From assembly GCA_017542915.1 (NCBI GenBank), contig JAFXWI010000077.1, positions 1 through 42,205 on the forward strand: a DNA stretch of 42,205 bases. Direction: 5' to 3'. Each line of letters opens with the position of its first letter. The first letter of the stretch is position 1. Under the pieces are notes generated by a model. It was not told the origin of the DNA. It ran no database searches and worked only from the letters and a program-made list of their open reading frames with translations. The position numbers and the translations under genes are program-made. The DNA is from Paludibacteraceae bacterium. GTDB taxonomy: Bacteria; Bacteroidota; Bacteroidia; Bacteroidales; Paludibacteraceae. This document shows positions 12,562 to 26,408 of the stretch, one piece after another.

Positions 12562-13431
12562 ATGAAACATTTCTCCATCCTCGCAGTCCTCTTGGCTTTT
12601 CTGCTGACAGGCTGCCACCGACAAGAAGAGAAGATGCTCAATGCCTTGGAGGAACAAGGTGTGGGCATGATCATTGACAATCATGGCGAACAGACGACCT
12701 ATTCGCTGCCTGGTGTACAAGACCTGCTGCGTCTGACCGCCGAGGAGCCCGAACGTCTCCACGGCGCCGTGGTAGCTGATAAACGGGTCGGCAAAGCGGC
12801 AGCTTCGCTGCTCATCGAAGGGCAGGTCAAAGCCGTTCGCACACCGCTCGTCAGCTCTCCGGCACGTAAGATGTTGGAGGAAGCAGGCATTGAACTGTAC
12901 GCACGGGAAGAGATCCCGCTGATGGTTAATATGGATGGTACCGACCTGTGTCCCATGGAGAAGAAACTGCTGGATGCCGCTACGCCCGAACAGTGTGCGG
13001 CGGTTCTTCGAGGCGCTTCCGTCGAGGGTTTCCAGATGTTGGAGATGCTCAACCGGCAGGGACTCAGCCTCTTGGTCTTTAACCACGATTCGCTCACCAC
13101 GCACTCTAACCGTGGTATCCGCGACCTGCTCTTACTCATCACCGAGCAACCCGAACGACTCCACGGAGCCGTGGTAGCCGATAAAGTGATCGGTAAGTCG
13201 GCTGCGGCTATCATGATCGTCGGTGGCGTCAAAGAGGTACATACCAACCTCATCTGCACTCCTGCACGCGAACTGTTTGAGACCAACGGCGTACGGGTCT
13301 TTGCTACCGAAGAGGTGCCCATGATCCTCAACCGTGACCGCTCAGGTATGTGTCCCATGGATACCCGGATTGCCAATATCGAGAGCATCGAAGAGTGCGT
13401 AGCGATCCTACAAGCCGGACTCGCACATTGA
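12562..13431 (+). CDS. Lipoprotein with two DUF1893-like domains
   Basis: 289 residues with a lipobox (LLTGC, Cys18). Two homologous halves follow (about 25-150 and 155-289). Both contain ERLHGAVVADK, a GK.AA stretch, an R/H-T-x-L segment, and C-P-M (LCPMEKK; MCPMDTR). This pattern resembles DUF1893, a family with a cytidine-deaminase-like fold and unknown biochemical role. The family is usually a single cytoplasmic domain, so a tandem, lipid-anchored form is unusual. It is last in the cassette, 27 nt after the protease gene. Confidence 0.75.
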   Translation: MKHFSILAVLLAFLLTGCHRQEEKMLNALEEQGVGMIIDNHGEQTTYSLPGVQDLLRLTAEEPERLHGAVVADKRVGKAAASLLIEGQVKAVRTPLVSSPARKMLEEAGIELYAREEIPLMVNMDGTDLCPMEKKLLDAATPEQCAAVLRGASVEGFQMLEMLNRQGLSLLVFNHDSLTTHSNRGIRDLLLLITEQPERLHGAVVADKVIGKSAAAIMIVGGVKEVHTNLICTPARELFETNGVRVFATEEVPMILNRDRSGMCPMDTRIANIESIEECVAILQAGLAH

Positions 13432-13477
13432 GGCGCAAATAAGTTAATGAGAAACTATCTTACGTGGTCTTTGATAT

Positions 13478-13645
13478 AGACAAAAACATAAAAAACCCCT
13501 TTGTATGCTTTAGCGCTTTGCGCTTTGCGTACTTAGCTGCTAAAATCCACTTGTGAGTAAACTCCCAGATGGCTTTTATCATCTCAGCCCGCAACTCTTC
13601 GAGTTAAAGCATACAAAGGCAATAAACATACAAAACATTTTTATA
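13478..13645 (+). repeat. Cloverleaf element CL-3
   Basis: The best copy of the structured element. The 15-bp perfect closing stem is CCTTTGTATGCTTTA (13498-13512) with 13605-13619. Inside are AGCGC-TTT-GCGCT (13512-13524); a central arm GCTG/CAGC (13536-13539/13585-13588), TAAAA/TTTTA (13541-13545/13574-13578), CCA/TGG and tip GAGT-AA-ACTC (13555-13564); and AACTC-TTC-GAGTT (13593-13605). Conserved unpaired bits CTTGT and CCAG flank the tip. The left flank ACAAAAACATAAAAAACCCC and right flank CAATAAACATACAAAACATT are shared with CL-5. It lies about 46 nt after the last cassette gene and faces CL-4. Confidence 0.8.
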
Positions 13646-13648
13646 AAA

Positions 13649-13680
13649 TTCGTTTAATTTGGTTAATTCGTGAACGATAA
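13649..13680. repeat. 32-nt imperfect palindromic repeat, copy 1
   Basis: The sequence starts TTCGTTTAATT and ends GTGAACGATAA, with complementary ends. It is about 80% identical to 23709-23740 and has the same length. It sits between the convergent elements CL-3 and CL-4. Its role is unknown. Confidence 0.6.
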
Positions 13681-13700
13681 AAATCAGAGGAAATGAAAAT

Positions 13701-13862
13701 TGTTTTTTAGGTTTATTGCCGAAGGCGTTTGTACTCCGCAAGGAGTGTGAATTAGGGCGATAGGCAGAACGGTAAGCTCGCTCACCGGGCGGCATAGCGA
13801 ACTAAGGCACAGAAGCCCATAGGGCTACAAACGACAAGGGGTTTTATAGGTTTTTGTCTAAT
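13701..13862 (-). repeat. Cloverleaf element CL-4 (inverted partner of CL-3)
   Basis: Read on the minus strand: flank GACAAAAACCTATAAAACCC; closing stem TACAAACG/CGTTTGTA (13826-13833 with 13726-13733); first hairpin AGCCC/GGGCT (13814-13826); central arm with TTAG/CTAA (13752-13755/13802-13805) and tip CGGTAAGC/GCTCACCG (13770-13787, one G-T pair); third hairpin ACTCC-GCAA-GGAGT (13733-13746). Arm order and flanks match CL-3 and CL-5 although the arm sequences differ. Together with CL-3 it fills the 465-nt gap 13432-13896, which holds no coding sequence. Confidence 0.75.
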
Positions 13863-13896
13863 AATCAACAACCGGTAAACTTATATTAATAAGAAA

Positions 13897-15387
13897 ATGA
13901 GAAAACTACGTATTATACTTGCTTCGTTCTTCTTCATCGCCGTGACCCTGTTGTTTCTCGGCGTGAGATGGAAGATCAATCTTTGGTTGACTTGGGTCGC
14001 TCAGATCCAGTTCCTTCCGGCGCTGATGGCGTTGAACTTCGGCGTCTTGGCGGGGCTGATCCTCCTGACCCTGCTTTTCGGACGCATCTATTGCAGCGTC
14101 ATCTGCCCCTTGGGCGTCATGCAGGACCTCTTCAGTTGGCTTGGACGCAAAGCGAAAAAGAACCGCTACTCCTATTCGCCGGAGAAGAAAGTCCTTCGTT
14201 ATACGGTCTTGGCGGTGTTCATCATCTGCCTCATCATCGGTTTTGCACCGGTGACGACCCTCTTGGCACCTTATTCGGCGTACGGACGCATCATCAACTC
14301 CCTCTTCCGTCCCCTCTACGACCTGCTCATCAATGGTATAGCTGCCGTGGAGAGCCGTTTTGACTCGTATCTCTTCTCCGAAGCGGAGATCTGGATGCGA
14401 AGCGTCACTACGTTTGTGGTAGCGCTGCTGACCCTCGGCGTGCTCGGTTTCCTCGCTTGGCGAAACGGCAGAACGTACTGCAACACCATCTGCCCCGTGG
14501 GCACGATCCTCTCTTTCTTCGCACGCTTCTCTTTGTTCCGTATTCAGATCAACGAAGACAAATGCCGTAAGTGTTCGCTCTGTGCGAAGAACTGCAAGGC
14601 ATCAGCCATCGATTTCAAGTCCGGAACGGTCGATCTCTCGCGCTGCGTAGCCTGTGGGGATTGTATCGATAAATGCCATGACGGAGCGATTAGTTTTAAG
14701 ATCGCTTCGCTGACAGACCGCTGCGCTGACAGACCGGCTTCGCCTGACAGACCCGTTGATGCTTCCAAACGTGCGTTCCTCACCGGCTCTCTGATGGCGG
14801 TCGGAACGGCGGCTATGTCGCAAACGAAGATCAAGGTCGATGGCGGTTTGGCGGAGATAGAAGACAAGATTGCCCCGCATCGCGAGACGCCGATCACTCC
14901 TCCGGGGTCCGTTTCGGCGAAGAACATGCAGCGTCATTGCACCGCGTGCCAATTATGCGTGAGCGCGTGCCCGAACAATATATTACGTCCCTCGTCCGAC
15001 CCCTTGCGGTTCATGCAACCGGAGATGTCGTTCGAACGCGGTTACTGCCGTCCCGAGTGTACCCGCTGCTCGCAGGTCTGCCCCACAGGCGCTATTCAGC
15101 CCCTCAAGCAGGAAGACAAACCTTTCGTGCATATCGGTCACGCCGTCTGGATTGAGCAGAACTGCATCCCCGTGACGAACGGAGACCATTGTGGAGCTTG
15201 TGCCCGACACTGTCCGATGGCAGCTATCCAGATGGTGGAACACACCACTTCGGACGGACGCACAGTCCTCGTTCCGGCTATAGACAAAGAGCGTTGTATA
15301 GGTTGCGGTAAATGCGAGAACCTCTGTCCCGCCCGTCCCTTCAGCGCCATCTACGTAGAAGGAAACCAAACACACATGGTTGGTTGA
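13897..15387 (+). CDS. NapH-like membrane polyferredoxin fused to a NapG-like ferredoxin
   Basis: 496 residues. The N-terminal half is NapH/NosR-type: four to five membrane spans, two CxxxCP motifs (YCSVICPLG, YCNTICPVG) and a 2x[4Fe-4S] domain starting at Cys223 (CRKCSLCAKNC, CVACGDCIDKC). After a linker comes SKRAFLTGSLMAVGTAAM (from Ser290), which looks like a degenerate Tat signal. Then follows a second ferredoxin half with several clusters (CTACQLCVSACPN, CTRCSQVCP, CGACARHCP, CIGCGKCENLCP). That half resembles NapG and other Tat-exported ferredoxins, so the gene appears to be a fusion. The linker (TDRCADRPASPDRPVD) is encoded by the 16-nt repeat. It likely passes electrons across the membrane, perhaps to the Tat-exported reductase encoded next; the donor is unknown. 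Confidence 0.85.
   Translation: MRKLRIILASFFFIAVTLLFLGVRWKINLWLTWVAQIQFLPALMALNFGVLAGLILLTLLFGRIYCSVICPLGVMQDLFSWLGRKAKKNRYSYSPEKKVLRYTVLAVFIICLIIGFAPVTTLLAPYSAYGRIINSLFRPLYDLLINGIAAVESRFDSYLFSEAEIWMRSVTTFVVALLTLGVLGFLAWRNGRTYCNTICPVGTILSFFARFSLFRIQINEDKCRKCSLCAKNCKASAIDFKSGTVDLSRCVACGDCIDKCHDGAISFKIASLTDRCADRPASPDRPVDASKRAFLTGSLMAVGTAAMSQTKIKVDGGLAEIEDKIAPHRETPITPPGSVSAKNMQRHCTACQLCVSACPNNILRPSSDPLRFMQPEMSFERGYCRPECTRCSQVCPTGAIQPLKQEDKPFVHIGHAVWIEQNCIPVTNGDHCGACARHCPMAAIQMVEHTTSDGRTVLVPAIDKERCIGCGKCENLCPARPFSAIYVEGNQTHMVG
14700..14752. repeat. 16-nt hairpin repeat inside the polyferredoxin gene
   Basis: Units are GATCGCTTCGCTGACA, GACCGCTGCGCTGACA and an 18-nt unit GACCGGCTTCGCCTGACA, in which both stem sides have gained one base, then a partial unit. 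The array lies exactly in the linker between the NapH-like and NapG-like halves. Confidence 0.8.
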
Positions 15388-15445: not shown

Positions 15446-16810
15446 ATGGATCGCAGACAATTTATTCAACATAGCGCAGCAGTAGTAGCAGGTACCTCCG
15501 TCCTGCTGTCGGCTTGCCGGAACGGCAACAAATCTCAAATATCAAATGTCCAATCTCAAATGCCCGAAGGGCAAATGACTTACCGTATCAACCCCAATTC
15601 GGGCGATCGGGTCTCGCTCTTGGGCTTCGGAATGATGCGTCTCCCGACTACTGCTACCGGCACGGCACGTGAGGACTCGGACGCTCCCATTGATCAGGAG
15701 GCGGTGAACGAGATGGTCGATTATGCCCTCTCTCATGGCGTCAATTATTTTGACACCTCGCCTGTCTATTGTCAGGGACACTCCGAGGAAGCCACCGGTA
15801 TCGCCTTGAGTCGTCATCCCCGTAACAGCTATTTCATCGCTACGAAGATGAGCAATTTCTCGCAGGGCGCTTGGCCTCGGGAGGAGTCGCAGGCGATGTT
15901 CCGACGCTCACTGGAGTACCTCCGCACAGATTATGTGGATTATCTGTTGCTGCACAGCATCGGTGGTTCCGCAAAGGGCTTAGATGCGTTCGAGACCTTC
16001 AATGCGCGGTATATCGACAACGGCATACTGGATTGGCTCGTGGAGCAGAAGCAGAAAGGCGTCATCCGCAATCTCGGTTTCTCGTACCACGGCGATGTTC
16101 GGATCTTCGACATGCTCCTCAAGTGGCACGACGAAGGCAAGTACCATTGGGACTTCGTGCAGATACAGCTCAATTATCTGGATTGGAATTACGCTAAGCG
16201 TAATAACCCCCGTAACACCAACGCCTCGTACCTCTACGGCGAGTTGGAGAAACGCGGTATTCCGGGTGTCATCATGGAGCCTTTGTTAGGCGGACGTCTT
16301 GCTAAACAGCCAACACATATTCTCCGCGAGATGAAGCGTGCGGACATCAACGCTACCCCTGCTCAGTGGGCATTCCGCTATGCCGGAACACCCAAAGGGA
16401 TCTTGACCGTCCTCAGCGGTATGACCTATATGGAGCATCTGCGCGAGAACTGTATCACCTATTCGCCCCTTCACCCCATTACGGCAGAGGAAGATGCGAT
16501 GTTGATGCACCTCGCCGACGAGATATGCAACCTCAAAGCGATCCCCTGTACGGCTTGCAACTACTGTATGCCTTGCCCGTACGGATTGAATATACCGGCG
16601 ATCTTCAGTTATTATAACAACATGTTGTCGGAGGAAAAAGTGTCTGCTCAGCGTTGGCTCAACGGCTATGACCGTGCGGTGCCTAAACTGCGTCAGGCGG
16701 ATCATTGTATCGGTTGTGACCACTGTCTCTCGCATTGTCCGCAGCGTATTCACATCCCCGAGGAGATGCGCAAAATCGACAACCTCGTCGAACAACTCAA
16801 GCAGGGCTAG
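15446..16810 (+). CDS. Tat-exported lipoprotein aldo/keto reductase with C-terminal Fe-S clusters
   Basis: 454 residues. The start at 15446 gives MDRRQFIQHSAAVVAGTSVL, a twin-arginine signal that ends in a lipobox (LLSAC, Cys24), so it is probably a Tat-exported lipoprotein. An aldo/keto reductase barrel follows with its tetrad residues visible: Asp in NYFDTSP, Tyr in SPVYCQG, Lys in IATKM and His in LLLHS. The last ~90 residues carry two cysteine clusters (CTACNYCMPCPYGLNIP and CIGCDHCLSHCPQRI). These could hold two [4Fe-4S] centres or be degraded versions. The preceding gene supplies a polyferredoxin and the following genes supply the Tat translocase, so electron delivery and export can both be explained locally. 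The substrate is unknown. Confidence 0.88.
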   Translation: MDRRQFIQHSAAVVAGTSVLLSACRNGNKSQISNVQSQMPEGQMTYRINPNSGDRVSLLGFGMMRLPTTATGTAREDSDAPIDQEAVNEMVDYALSHGVNYFDTSPVYCQGHSEEATGIALSRHPRNSYFIATKMSNFSQGAWPREESQAMFRRSLEYLRTDYVDYLLLHSIGGSAKGLDAFETFNARYIDNGILDWLVEQKQKGVIRNLGFSYHGDVRIFDMLLKWHDEGKYHWDFVQIQLNYLDWNYAKRNNPRNTNASYLYGELEKRGIPGVIMEPLLGGRLAKQPTHILREMKRADINATPAQWAFRYAGTPKGILTVLSGMTYMEHLRENCITYSPLHPITAEEDAMLMHLADEICNLKAIPCTACNYCMPCPYGLNIPAIFSYYNNMLSEEKVSAQRWLNGYDRAVPKLRQADHCIGCDHCLSHCPQRIHIPEEMRKIDNLVEQLKQG

Positions 16811-16812
16811 TA

Positions 16813-16950
16813 GACCGCTGCGCTGTTGGACCGCTACGCTGTTGGACCGCTACGCTGTTAGATCGCTACGCTGTTAGACTAACGACTAACGACTAACGAC
16901 CAACGACTAAAAATTTTTAATTTTTAATTCTTAATTTTTAATTTTTAATT
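16813..16950. repeat. 16-nt hairpin repeat followed by 7-nt-period arrays
   Basis: Four exact 16-nt units (GACCGCTGCGCTGTTG, twice GACCGCTACGCTGTT(G/A), GATCGCTACGCTGTTA) begin 2 nt after the reductase stop codon. They are followed by GACTAAC units and then TTTTTAA units, both with a 7-nt period, ending 4 nt before tatA. The whole 143-nt gap is made of repeats. Confidence 0.85.
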
Positions 16951-18539: not shown

Positions 18540-18762
18540 ATGGCGAAGCGTCTGCGTATAATAGCAGGGCCTAATGGCTCAGGAAAGTCTTCGGTATATG
18601 CCGATCTCCTGAAAACAAAAACTTATTTTTGACAATAGCGAAAATAAGTATCAATGGGTAGCGGAATATGATGCTGAAAGCGGACAAATGATTTATAAGA
18701 GTGACGAAGTCCCGTCATGGGTGATAGAATATGTTACTAAGCCAAAACTATCAAAACTTTAG
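18540..18762 (+). pseudogene. Zeta-toxin-like kinase, internally deleted
   Basis: Thirty codons from the ATG at 18540 give MAKRLRIIAGPNGSGKSSVY, the start of a zeta toxin with its Walker A loop (GPNGSGKS), and end at TGA 18630-18632. From 18628, in the next frame, 44 codons read DNSENKYQWVAEYDAESGQ and onward to VIEYVTKPKLSKL, which looks like the C terminus of the same family. Zeta toxins are usually ~180-290 residues, so most of the middle is missing and the ends are out of frame. Confidence 0.75.
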
Positions 18763-25420: not shown

Positions 25421-25454
25421 AATTATTTAATTTTAAACATGTTTTAAATTAATA

Positions 25455-25582
25455 GACCGCTTCGCTGACAGACCGCTTTGCTGACAGACCGTTTCACTGA
25501 CAGACCGCTTCGCTGACAGACCATTTCACAGAAAGACAATCTCATTAATAGACTGCTTCACGGAAAGGCAATCTCAAAATCG
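25455..25582 (+). repeat. 16-nt hairpin repeat, eight units, in the secG leader
   Basis: Eight units in exact 16-nt register. They begin GACCGCTTCGCTGACA (25455-25470) and become more degenerate towards 25582. In the first four units the short stem GC-TTC-GC or a variant is visible. The array fills most of the secG 5' untranslated region, seen in antisense there. Confidence 0.85.
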
Positions 25583-25617: not shown

Positions 25618-25666
25618 ATTCTATGTCATTTTTTTGTTAAATAGTTATATGGAGTCCTATAAAATT

Positions 25667-25831
25667 AAACAAAAACATATAAAACCCCTTGATTGCTTTA
25701 GAAGCAGAGCTTCTTGAACAAATAGCCACTAAAACCTGCTTGTAAGCAAGCTTCCAGGCAGCTTTTACTACCTATTTGCTCAACTCTCCGAGTTTAAATC
25801 AATCAAGGCCATAAACATAAAAAACATTTGT
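25667..25831 (+). repeat. Cloverleaf element CL-5
   Basis: Closing stem CCTTGATTG (25687-25695)/CAATCAAGG (25800-25808), extended by TTTA/TAAA. First hairpin AGAAGC-AGA-GCTTCT (25700-25714). Central arm CAAATAG/CTATTTG (25719-25725/25772-25778), TAAAA/TTTTA, CTGC/GCAG and tip AAGC-AA-GCTT (25744-25753). Third hairpin AACTC-TCC-GAGTT (25782-25794). CTTGT and CCAG flank the tip as in CL-3. Every arm is kept by compensating changes relative to CL-3. It stands alone, ending about 8 nt from the lptE stop. Confidence 0.8.
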
Positions 25832-25838
25832 TAAATGG

Positions 25839-26408
25839 TTACCATTTTGCTACTGTATCGTTGTAGATATTCTCTGCAATCTCACGTATCATCGTGGCGC
25901 AAAGCTCATCTTGCACGTCGGACAGGAGGAGGGCAGCGTCGAAGGTTTGGTACGCAGTATAAGTCTTCTCAAACGACTCTTCGGGGTTGATGTTATTGGT
26001 GAACCGCACGGAAACGCGGATCGTCAGTTTGCTCTCCGAAGCGTAGCTGTCCACACTGATGGCACCCTGCGAGAGATCGTAGCCGATGATGGAGCCTTCG
26101 AGTTCGAGATCGCCACCTTTGCGGAGGATCTGGAGGCGCGTCTGACGCTGATAGAGATCGCGTATCTCCTCCGTGAGCGCATTGCTCAGCGTCGGGTTGA
26201 CCATCGGCGCGTTGTTCGGGAAGTCCGAGATGCCGATAGAGTGCGTAGTCTGGTAGTTGATGTTGGCACCGTTGAGCTTGAAACTGACAGAGCAGCTGCT
26301 CATAATGAGCAGCAGCAGACCGCACACGAGGTGTGCTGTAAGACCGCTGACGCTGTAAGACCGCTGCGCTGTAAGACCGCCCTTCGGGCTGAAAGATTTA
26401 TAGATCAT
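25839..26408 (-). CDS. lptE: LPS assembly lipoprotein LptE, Bacteroidota type
   Basis: 189 residues. It has a lipobox (LLLLIMSSC), then the family core (SVSFKLNGANINYQTTHSIGI, NPTLSNALTEEIRDLYQRQT, LELEGSIIGYDLSQG) and a C-terminal helix. LptE plugs the LptD outer-membrane channel that delivers lipopolysaccharide. The first codon overlaps the preceding regulator gene by 11 nt, so translation is likely coupled. The ~25 residues before the hydrophobic part (SPKGGLTAQRSYSVSGLTA) are encoded by the 16-nt repeat and give an oddly long n-region. No later start gives a full signal peptide. Confidence 0.85.
   Translation of the reverse strand: MIYKSFSPKGGLTAQRSYSVSGLTAHLVCGLLLLIMSSCSVSFKLNGANINYQTTHSIGISDFPNNAPMVNPTLSNALTEEIRDLYQRQTRLQILRKGGDLELEGSIIGYDLSQGAISVDSYASESKLTIRVSVRFTNNINPEESFEKTYTAYQTFDAALLLSDVQDELCATMIREIAENIYNDTVAKW
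26318..26394 (+). repeat. 16-nt hairpin repeat in the lptE start region
   Basis: Units of 24, 17, 16 and 20 nt. All begin GACC and end TGTAA or TGAAA, but their stems differ: GCACAC-GAG-GTGTGC, GC-TGAC-GC, GC-TGC-GC and GCCC-TTC-GGGC. Length differences are confined to the stem and complementarity is kept, which is the clearest view of the family. The array is translated within lptE on the minus strand. Confidence 0.85.

Follow-up and report, generated by a model that had tools for sequence, protein, structure and literature searches.

The two facing cloverleaf-like units that fill one intergenic gap of the window (the whole stretch of 42,205 nucleotides analysed here, from a Paludibacteraceae bacterium) probably delimit, one at each end, a short non-autonomous transposable element inserted at an operon stop-start junction and using a single-stranded cloverleaf in the manner proposed below. 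For solo copies found in related genomes, the identification as non-autonomous mobile elements that are bounded by terminal inverted repeats (TIRs) and contain a covarying cloverleaf is well supported; for the pair of the window, it derives from homology to these solo copies. According to the proposed mechanism, each end would consist of a cloverleaf module of ~125 nt between A-rich repeats, and a transposase supplied in trans would move the element by its inverted ends. Less surely, the cloverleaf would function single-stranded, its reading direction being outward from the inner flank. Its most likely form would be folded single-stranded DNA that becomes exposed during replication or transposition, and a protein would read its conserved tip (GCTTGC) and the mismatches of its arm. 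The copy present in the window would have lost its cargo or never carried any.

The first-pass annotation had placed in this gap two facing units of ~165 nt, CL-3 and CL-4, with A-rich flanks and the same fold plan. Both units lie where it had put them (Table 1), both fold according to this plan, and the arm stem letters that it quoted are present in the sequence. The common plan includes a closing stem (15 pairs in CL-3 but only 8 in CL-4) and three hairpins, the first of them small and the second extended into a long arm that contains small mismatches and ends in a tight tip. A model built on 76 copies from which CL-4 was left out (R2) scores CL-3, CL-4 and the solo unit CL-5 at 143, 49 and 118 bits, respectively. 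Judged from their sequences, the three units are homologous, CL-4 being a diverged homologue. No ORF of at least 80 aa was found in the gap (13432-13896), and the tRNA search found none.

Table 1. Features of the window around the cloverleaf units (feature, position, strand, remarks)
CL-3 unit, type A	13478..13637	+	A-rich outer flank, cloverleaf, A-rich inner flank
CL-3 model core	13494-13624	favoured fold on -	R2 143.2 bits, and fold
CL-4 unit, type B	13701..13859	-	plan as CL-3, plus extra small hairpin GCCTTCGGC beside closing stem
CL-4 model core	13714-13844	favoured fold on +	R2 49.3 bits, E 8e-10, and fold
Outer inverted-repeat arms	13477..13501 / 13836..13860	+ / -	25 nt, 92% complementary
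Inner inverted-repeat arms	13618..13642 / 13696..13720	+ / -	25 nt, 88% complementary
AT-rich spacer between both ends, without gene	13643..13695		position of the cargo in other copies (relatives)
CL-5 unit, solo type A cloverleaf	25667..25826	+	R2 118 bits
Upstream gene, DUF1893/TM1506 protein	12562..13431	+	PF08973, E 2.8e-72
Downstream gene, several 4Fe-4S domains	13897..15387	+	Pfam
Possible target duplication AATGAGAAA, left copy	13446..13454	+	exact 9-mer in both flanks
Possible target duplication AATGAGAAA, right copy	13896..13904	+	spans start codon of downstream gene
Direct repeat TTTGTTAAATAGTTA left of CL-5	25633..25647	+	14/15 match with 25827-25841
Direct repeat TTTGTTAAATGGTTA right of CL-5	25827..25841	+	0/300 shuffles

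The genes that flank the pair are 465 nt apart in the window, versus 4 and 7 nt at the corresponding empty sites of genomes G002 and G032. Both flanks share an exact 9-mer, which makes a target duplication of the pair plausible at most, since 20 of 1000 shufflings of the close flanks also yield an exact 9-mer and its position is off from the ends inferred via sister copies. The repeat flanking CL-5 is 15 nt long, unlike the 9 nt seen in recent solo copies. Elsewhere in the window, words of the agaccgct(N)cgctg type are repeated between genes (16800-16880 and 25440-25560); similar words (ACAGACCGTTTCACTGACAG) border four-helix-bundle-like inserts in loci L163 and L167, and those of the window may be remnants of another insert family. 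A short stretch at 18540-18640 resembles the start of a P-loop gene (GPNGSGKSS) and breaks off.

Further copies, on whose existence the first-pass annotation had made its reading depend, are numerous within one genus. A BLAST search with CL-3 gave matches in 15 of 61 genomes, each belonging to this genus, and R1, an earlier model used solely for finding copies, has matches (E up to 0.01) in 81 of 151 congeneric genomes. R1 matches reach at least 22 in the richest genomes, where true copies are fewer, since one copy can match both strands. Across the order, R2 matches 3 of 247 genomes, two of the same genus and one (G362) of another family, which has three matches that are weaker but fold well; R2 found none in the two other listed genera of the same family. 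The exact outer-end pattern occurs in 24 stretches of the GTDB collection, titled Bacteroidales (20), Paludibacteraceae (2), Prevotellaceae (1) and Dependentiae (1), and many of the isolates concerned belong to the RUG series, which we take to be of rumen origin. The Candidatus Dependentiae contig (L334) may have the pattern by chance, by transfer or by misbinning. In the nearest genome, several contigs break off inside copies.

The solo copies give the clearest indication of the type of element concerned. Recent ones are included in elements of 274-332 bp with inverted ends TAGTAGTGTTGCGATAA...CGCAACAGTAGTA. Among the 110 copies that are left after removal of identical ones, 42 have the left end of this first type and 14 have both ends. 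The 9-bp target duplication is perfect in 9 of these 14 and matches at 7 or more of 9 positions in 11 (shuffled mean 1.3, maximum 8), with the best-matching flank taken where several right ends were possible and with a control that shuffled the chosen flanks without copying that choice. A second end type, CAGTAGTGTCCACT, provides the left end of 18 copies and both ends of 8, of which 2 have a perfect duplication and 4 match at 7 or more of 9 positions (shuffled mean 0.6, maximum 3). Two more perfect duplications were seen by eye in L309 and L317 and none in L311. Furthermore, a complete solo TIR element with a perfect 9-bp duplication (L264) interrupts a second cloverleaf element within its A-rich flank. 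Like MITEs, these elements are short, multicopy and devoid of a transposase gene, have terminal inverted repeats (the outer arms in the window, the ends in the solos) and, in the case of the solos, are flanked by target duplications.

The ends and the 9-bp duplication suggest an IS1 parent. However, the IS1 transposase domain (PF03400) is found in 0 of the 151 genomes. The IS1595 domain (PF12762) is present in 10 of 151, but matching ends are absent around the transposase: one locus (L326) has two weak end words in one direction and three others have scattered words with 4 mismatches. A search for paired ends around a transposase yielded 52 end matches in 10 genomes. A single convergent pair is spaced by more than 1 kb (2.4 kb), and the gene between its ends is unrelated. 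No autonomous partner was thus found among the IS1 and IS1595 types in the 151 genomes.

The fold itself has been maintained while its sequence changed, as the first-pass annotation had proposed from the two copies of the gap. When 13 copies were initially aligned with MAFFT, the consensus was poor. In the R2 alignment (76 copies, chosen by the authors from 95 aligned matches), pairing is kept in 93.1% of 3402 cells and falls to 36-55% when partners are slid by 1-3 columns, a comparison flattered by a structure derived from the same alignment. Changes on both sides of a pair occur in 330 cells versus 100.7±11.4 after shuffling and affect 30 of 45 base pairs; none of 500 shuffles reaches 330, kinship among copies inflating this test. 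The covariation, a second point on which the first reading had staked itself, is therefore significant in a larger alignment. Given this kinship and the origin of the structure, it is the slid control and the R2 match to CL-4 (49.3 bits) that carry the weight.

The constraint extends to loops and mismatches. The tip of the long arm is GCTTGC in 43 of 76 copies and GTTTAC in 23. In hairpin 2, where loops are closed by C-G, 41 of 46 triloops have the form GNA and 18 of 26 tetraloops the form GNNA (4 of these being GNRA), while 4 of the 76 copies lack a hairpin 2 of such kind. Purine-purine mismatches recur at fixed places in the long arm. In three loci (L009 1501-1760, L310 from 344, and L312), the centre of the cloverleaf is replaced or opened by a foreign stretch, the closing-stem sequence being retained.

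By folding energy, the strand that runs from the inner to the outer flank is favoured in 13 of 13 copies (in L006b by a mere 0.3 kcal/mol) and in the three matches of G362; R2 scores provide no strand test, since R2 was built from the folding strand. G.U and A.C oppositions number 62:22 in helix 1, 17:40 in helix 2, 27:6 in helix 3, 29:6 in helix 4 and 1:4 in helix 5. Pooled helices 3-5 give 57 G.U versus 16 A.C (25:4 over 28 clusters), and 22 base pairs favour G.U, 9 favour A.C and 14 tie. For helix 2, we attribute the reversal to the alignment, in which loops of different lengths are mixed. This strand bias is compatible with RNA and with single-stranded DNA alike. The first proposal of a functional fold, either RNA or single-stranded DNA, stands as regards the covarying fold, the strand bias fitting either of its two forms.

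Alternatively, the cloverleaf could act at the RNA level, its transcript arising either together with the operon or from a promoter of its own. Such an RNA might undergo processing, shield or insulate transcripts, or serve as a small RNA, and insertion would thereby be tolerable. This reading keeps an appreciable share of probability, well short of an even chance. The preference for G.U within the covariation speaks for it, as does the CUUG tip, GCUUGC being a stable RNA loop, which counts against a DNA reading. So does the location of 56 of 80 classified copies between co-directional genes. However, relative to host genes there is no clear direction bias (33 top-sense, 23 bottom-sense, 19 divergent and 5 convergent copies), with genes called by ORF length alone, 27 further copies having no gene on one side and 3 overlapping an ORF; the caller is rough, giving different arrangements to CL-5 and its counterpart L010. 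Such mixed directions fit a function independent of host transcription, and in a facing pair one copy is always antisense. In 110 non-identical copies, conservation extends beyond the core by ~22 nt on the outer side and by ~16 nt on the inner side (~16-23 nt overall), a length that would hardly accommodate an upstream promoter box. A scan of 13400-13950 for sigma-70-like promoters and terminator-like sites found none, Bacteroidetes-type promoters being outside its scope. The tetraloops are seldom GNRA, and the comparison with Rfam that the first-pass annotation had suggested gave no family at gathering score in the window, two matches in the region lying far below it.

Loops of the c(GNA)g, c(GNNA)g and g(CNNG)c types are those of unusually stable DNA hairpins. 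The strand preference, the indifference to gene direction, the scant room for a promoter and the GNA/GNNA loops make us lean towards a fold that acts as single-stranded DNA rather than RNA.

Some facing pairs elsewhere carry a cargo of one or two genes, frequently a GxxExxY gene (PD-(D/E)XK; PDDEXK_3). In G001, a pair located between signal-peptidase-like and PqqD-like genes (by eye) encloses a GxxExxY gene (PF13366); a pair of G007 (L035) has a DUF3784 protein as cargo, and in G036 a pair is flanked by genes that look like rpoA and rplQ. In G362, a second, facing cloverleaf of diverged sequence was recognized by eye in 2 of 3 loci, the model matching one unit per locus. Five genomes harbour cloverleaf elements directly after mutA (mutA and mutB being named by eye), with differing cargo: GxxExxY and an unknown ORF (L049), GxxExxY and a TPR protein (L044 and, by eye, L071), GxxExxY and a CAT-family protein (L070), or an unrelated protein alone (L053). 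The expectation that copies might flank variable gene cassettes is thus borne out at this site. In L049 and L053, mutB can be recognized on the far side of the element; in L044, L070 and L071 the contig ends within the element, the second end being partial or, in L071, not seen. No target duplication is visible around these post-mutA elements.

A survey of 30 mutA loci (L159-L188) put these elements in context. Among the 27 readable loci, 10 have a 5-8 nt gap to mutB and 17 carry an insert directly after the mutA stop codon, belonging to several unrelated families, the majority with genes that by eye are GxxExxY-like or four-helix-bundle-like. They comprise 5 cloverleaf elements, 2 with a weaker model match (L161 and L175), 7 GxxExxY-like inserts with other ends and 2 four-helix-bundle-like inserts (L163 and L167), the latter two classes being assigned by eye, and 1 unassigned. 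This mix indicates that the junction is a hot spot for several insert families and that GxxExxY is not tied to cloverleafs. The related cloverleaf of L175 (2901-3303, 51.5 bits) has different ends, TGTAAATAAACAWAGATAAAC. Four-helix-bundle (IVS) genes were also considered as cloverleaf cargo; they are present in 13 of 14 genomes, but a motif scan of 30 loci from that search showed no cloverleaf ends.

The first-pass annotation had offered two readings of the facing copies, ends of a non-autonomous element or folded single-strand recombination sites. According to the latter, the cloverleafs would be the site-specific recombination sites of a gene-cassette system whose cargo is swapped at folded single strands, as in integrons. 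The like ends that surround different cargo at the same place after mutA in several genomes, the strand preference and the facing pairs found in two families (by eye in the second) would all fit. It is nevertheless doubtful, since solo copies often lie in what resembles an ordinary TIR element with 9-bp duplications of fixed length; furthermore, homologous recombination between ends could also exchange cargo. The inverted ends and duplications of the recent solos support the other reading, that of a non-autonomous element. A more ambitious version is rather improbable. In it, the facing cloverleafs of Bacteroidales would be ends of a novel class, folded as single strands and serving recombination or transposition; genes, including a GxxExxY nuclease that aids its own spread, would be swapped between these fixed ends at operon junctions while the operon stays unbroken. 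If true, the cloverleaf would be to this Bacteroidales system what attC is to integrons.

It is more unlikely still that the stems are maintained by mutation without selection, through the correction of quasipalindromes and through gene conversion, whether from arm to arm or from copy to copy, in double-stranded cruciform DNA. Arms that change fast yet stay paired, even between copies of one genome, are what such a process would produce. However, correction would be expected to act equally on both strands, whereas one is favoured; the purine-purine mismatches of the long arm recur at fixed places, the tip and the hairpin-2 loops are constrained, and the fold plan is found again in another family. 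Finally, a resemblance by chance between ordinary intergenic hairpins, in favour of which nothing was found, can practically be dismissed in view of the three scores obtained in one window and the matches in 81 of 151 genomes.

Small bacterial mobile elements are known mainly by their ends. The elements described here have an internal fold of three arms that persists despite drift of its sequence. Together with the preference for one strand, this points to a novel role of folded, single-stranded nucleic acid during transposition. The pairs also illustrate a route by which an operon can acquire genes, namely between the stop codon of one gene and the start codon of the next, and provide a possible setting for the GxxExxY protein family, which is sparsely named in the open literature and, in the accessible part of one paper, appears merely as a neighbouring gene. 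No published description of the cloverleaf repeat was found in the open literature, as judged by top-listed titles and with subscription papers and preprints outside the search.

Several known systems can be compared with the cloverleaf elements. REP/RAYT elements combine a Y1 RAYT transposase with a GTAG-headed hairpin, and integron cassette systems an integrase with attC core sites. Like the cloverleaf elements, the MITE-like elements BrickBuilt and 464/PgRS of Porphyromonas gingivalis are short, intergenic and multicopy, with terminal inverted repeats and without transposase (PMC4596501). BrickBuilt has 23-nt tandem repeats, IS5-family-like ends and target duplications of irregular length (PMC4596501), whereas the cloverleaf elements are characterized by a cloverleaf that covaries, ends of the TAGTAGTG type, duplications of 9 bp and facing pairs with cargo; no such family of 23-nt tandem repeats was found in 13440-13900. 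The IS982-derived MITE of Cardinium is likewise lineage-restricted, recently spread and non-autonomous, but its parent IS is known, that of the cloverleaf elements not having been found, and its abstract does not mention a conserved fold (PMC9769881). The intervening sequences of 23S rRNA that encode the S23 protein are also selfish inserts in a transcribed unit (PMC4990558). The post-mutA inserts of L163 and L167, with a four-helix-bundle gene of S23 type by eye, belong to a different class from the cloverleaf elements, which lie between protein genes, as in the ORF-less gap of the window, and have GxxExxY or other proteins rather than S23 as cargo. Integron attC sites likewise comprise folded, strand-preferred hairpins beside exchangeable genes (PMC6393395), while the cloverleafs are distinguished by a three-armed fold, facing pairs and, in the solos, inverted ends with fixed duplications.
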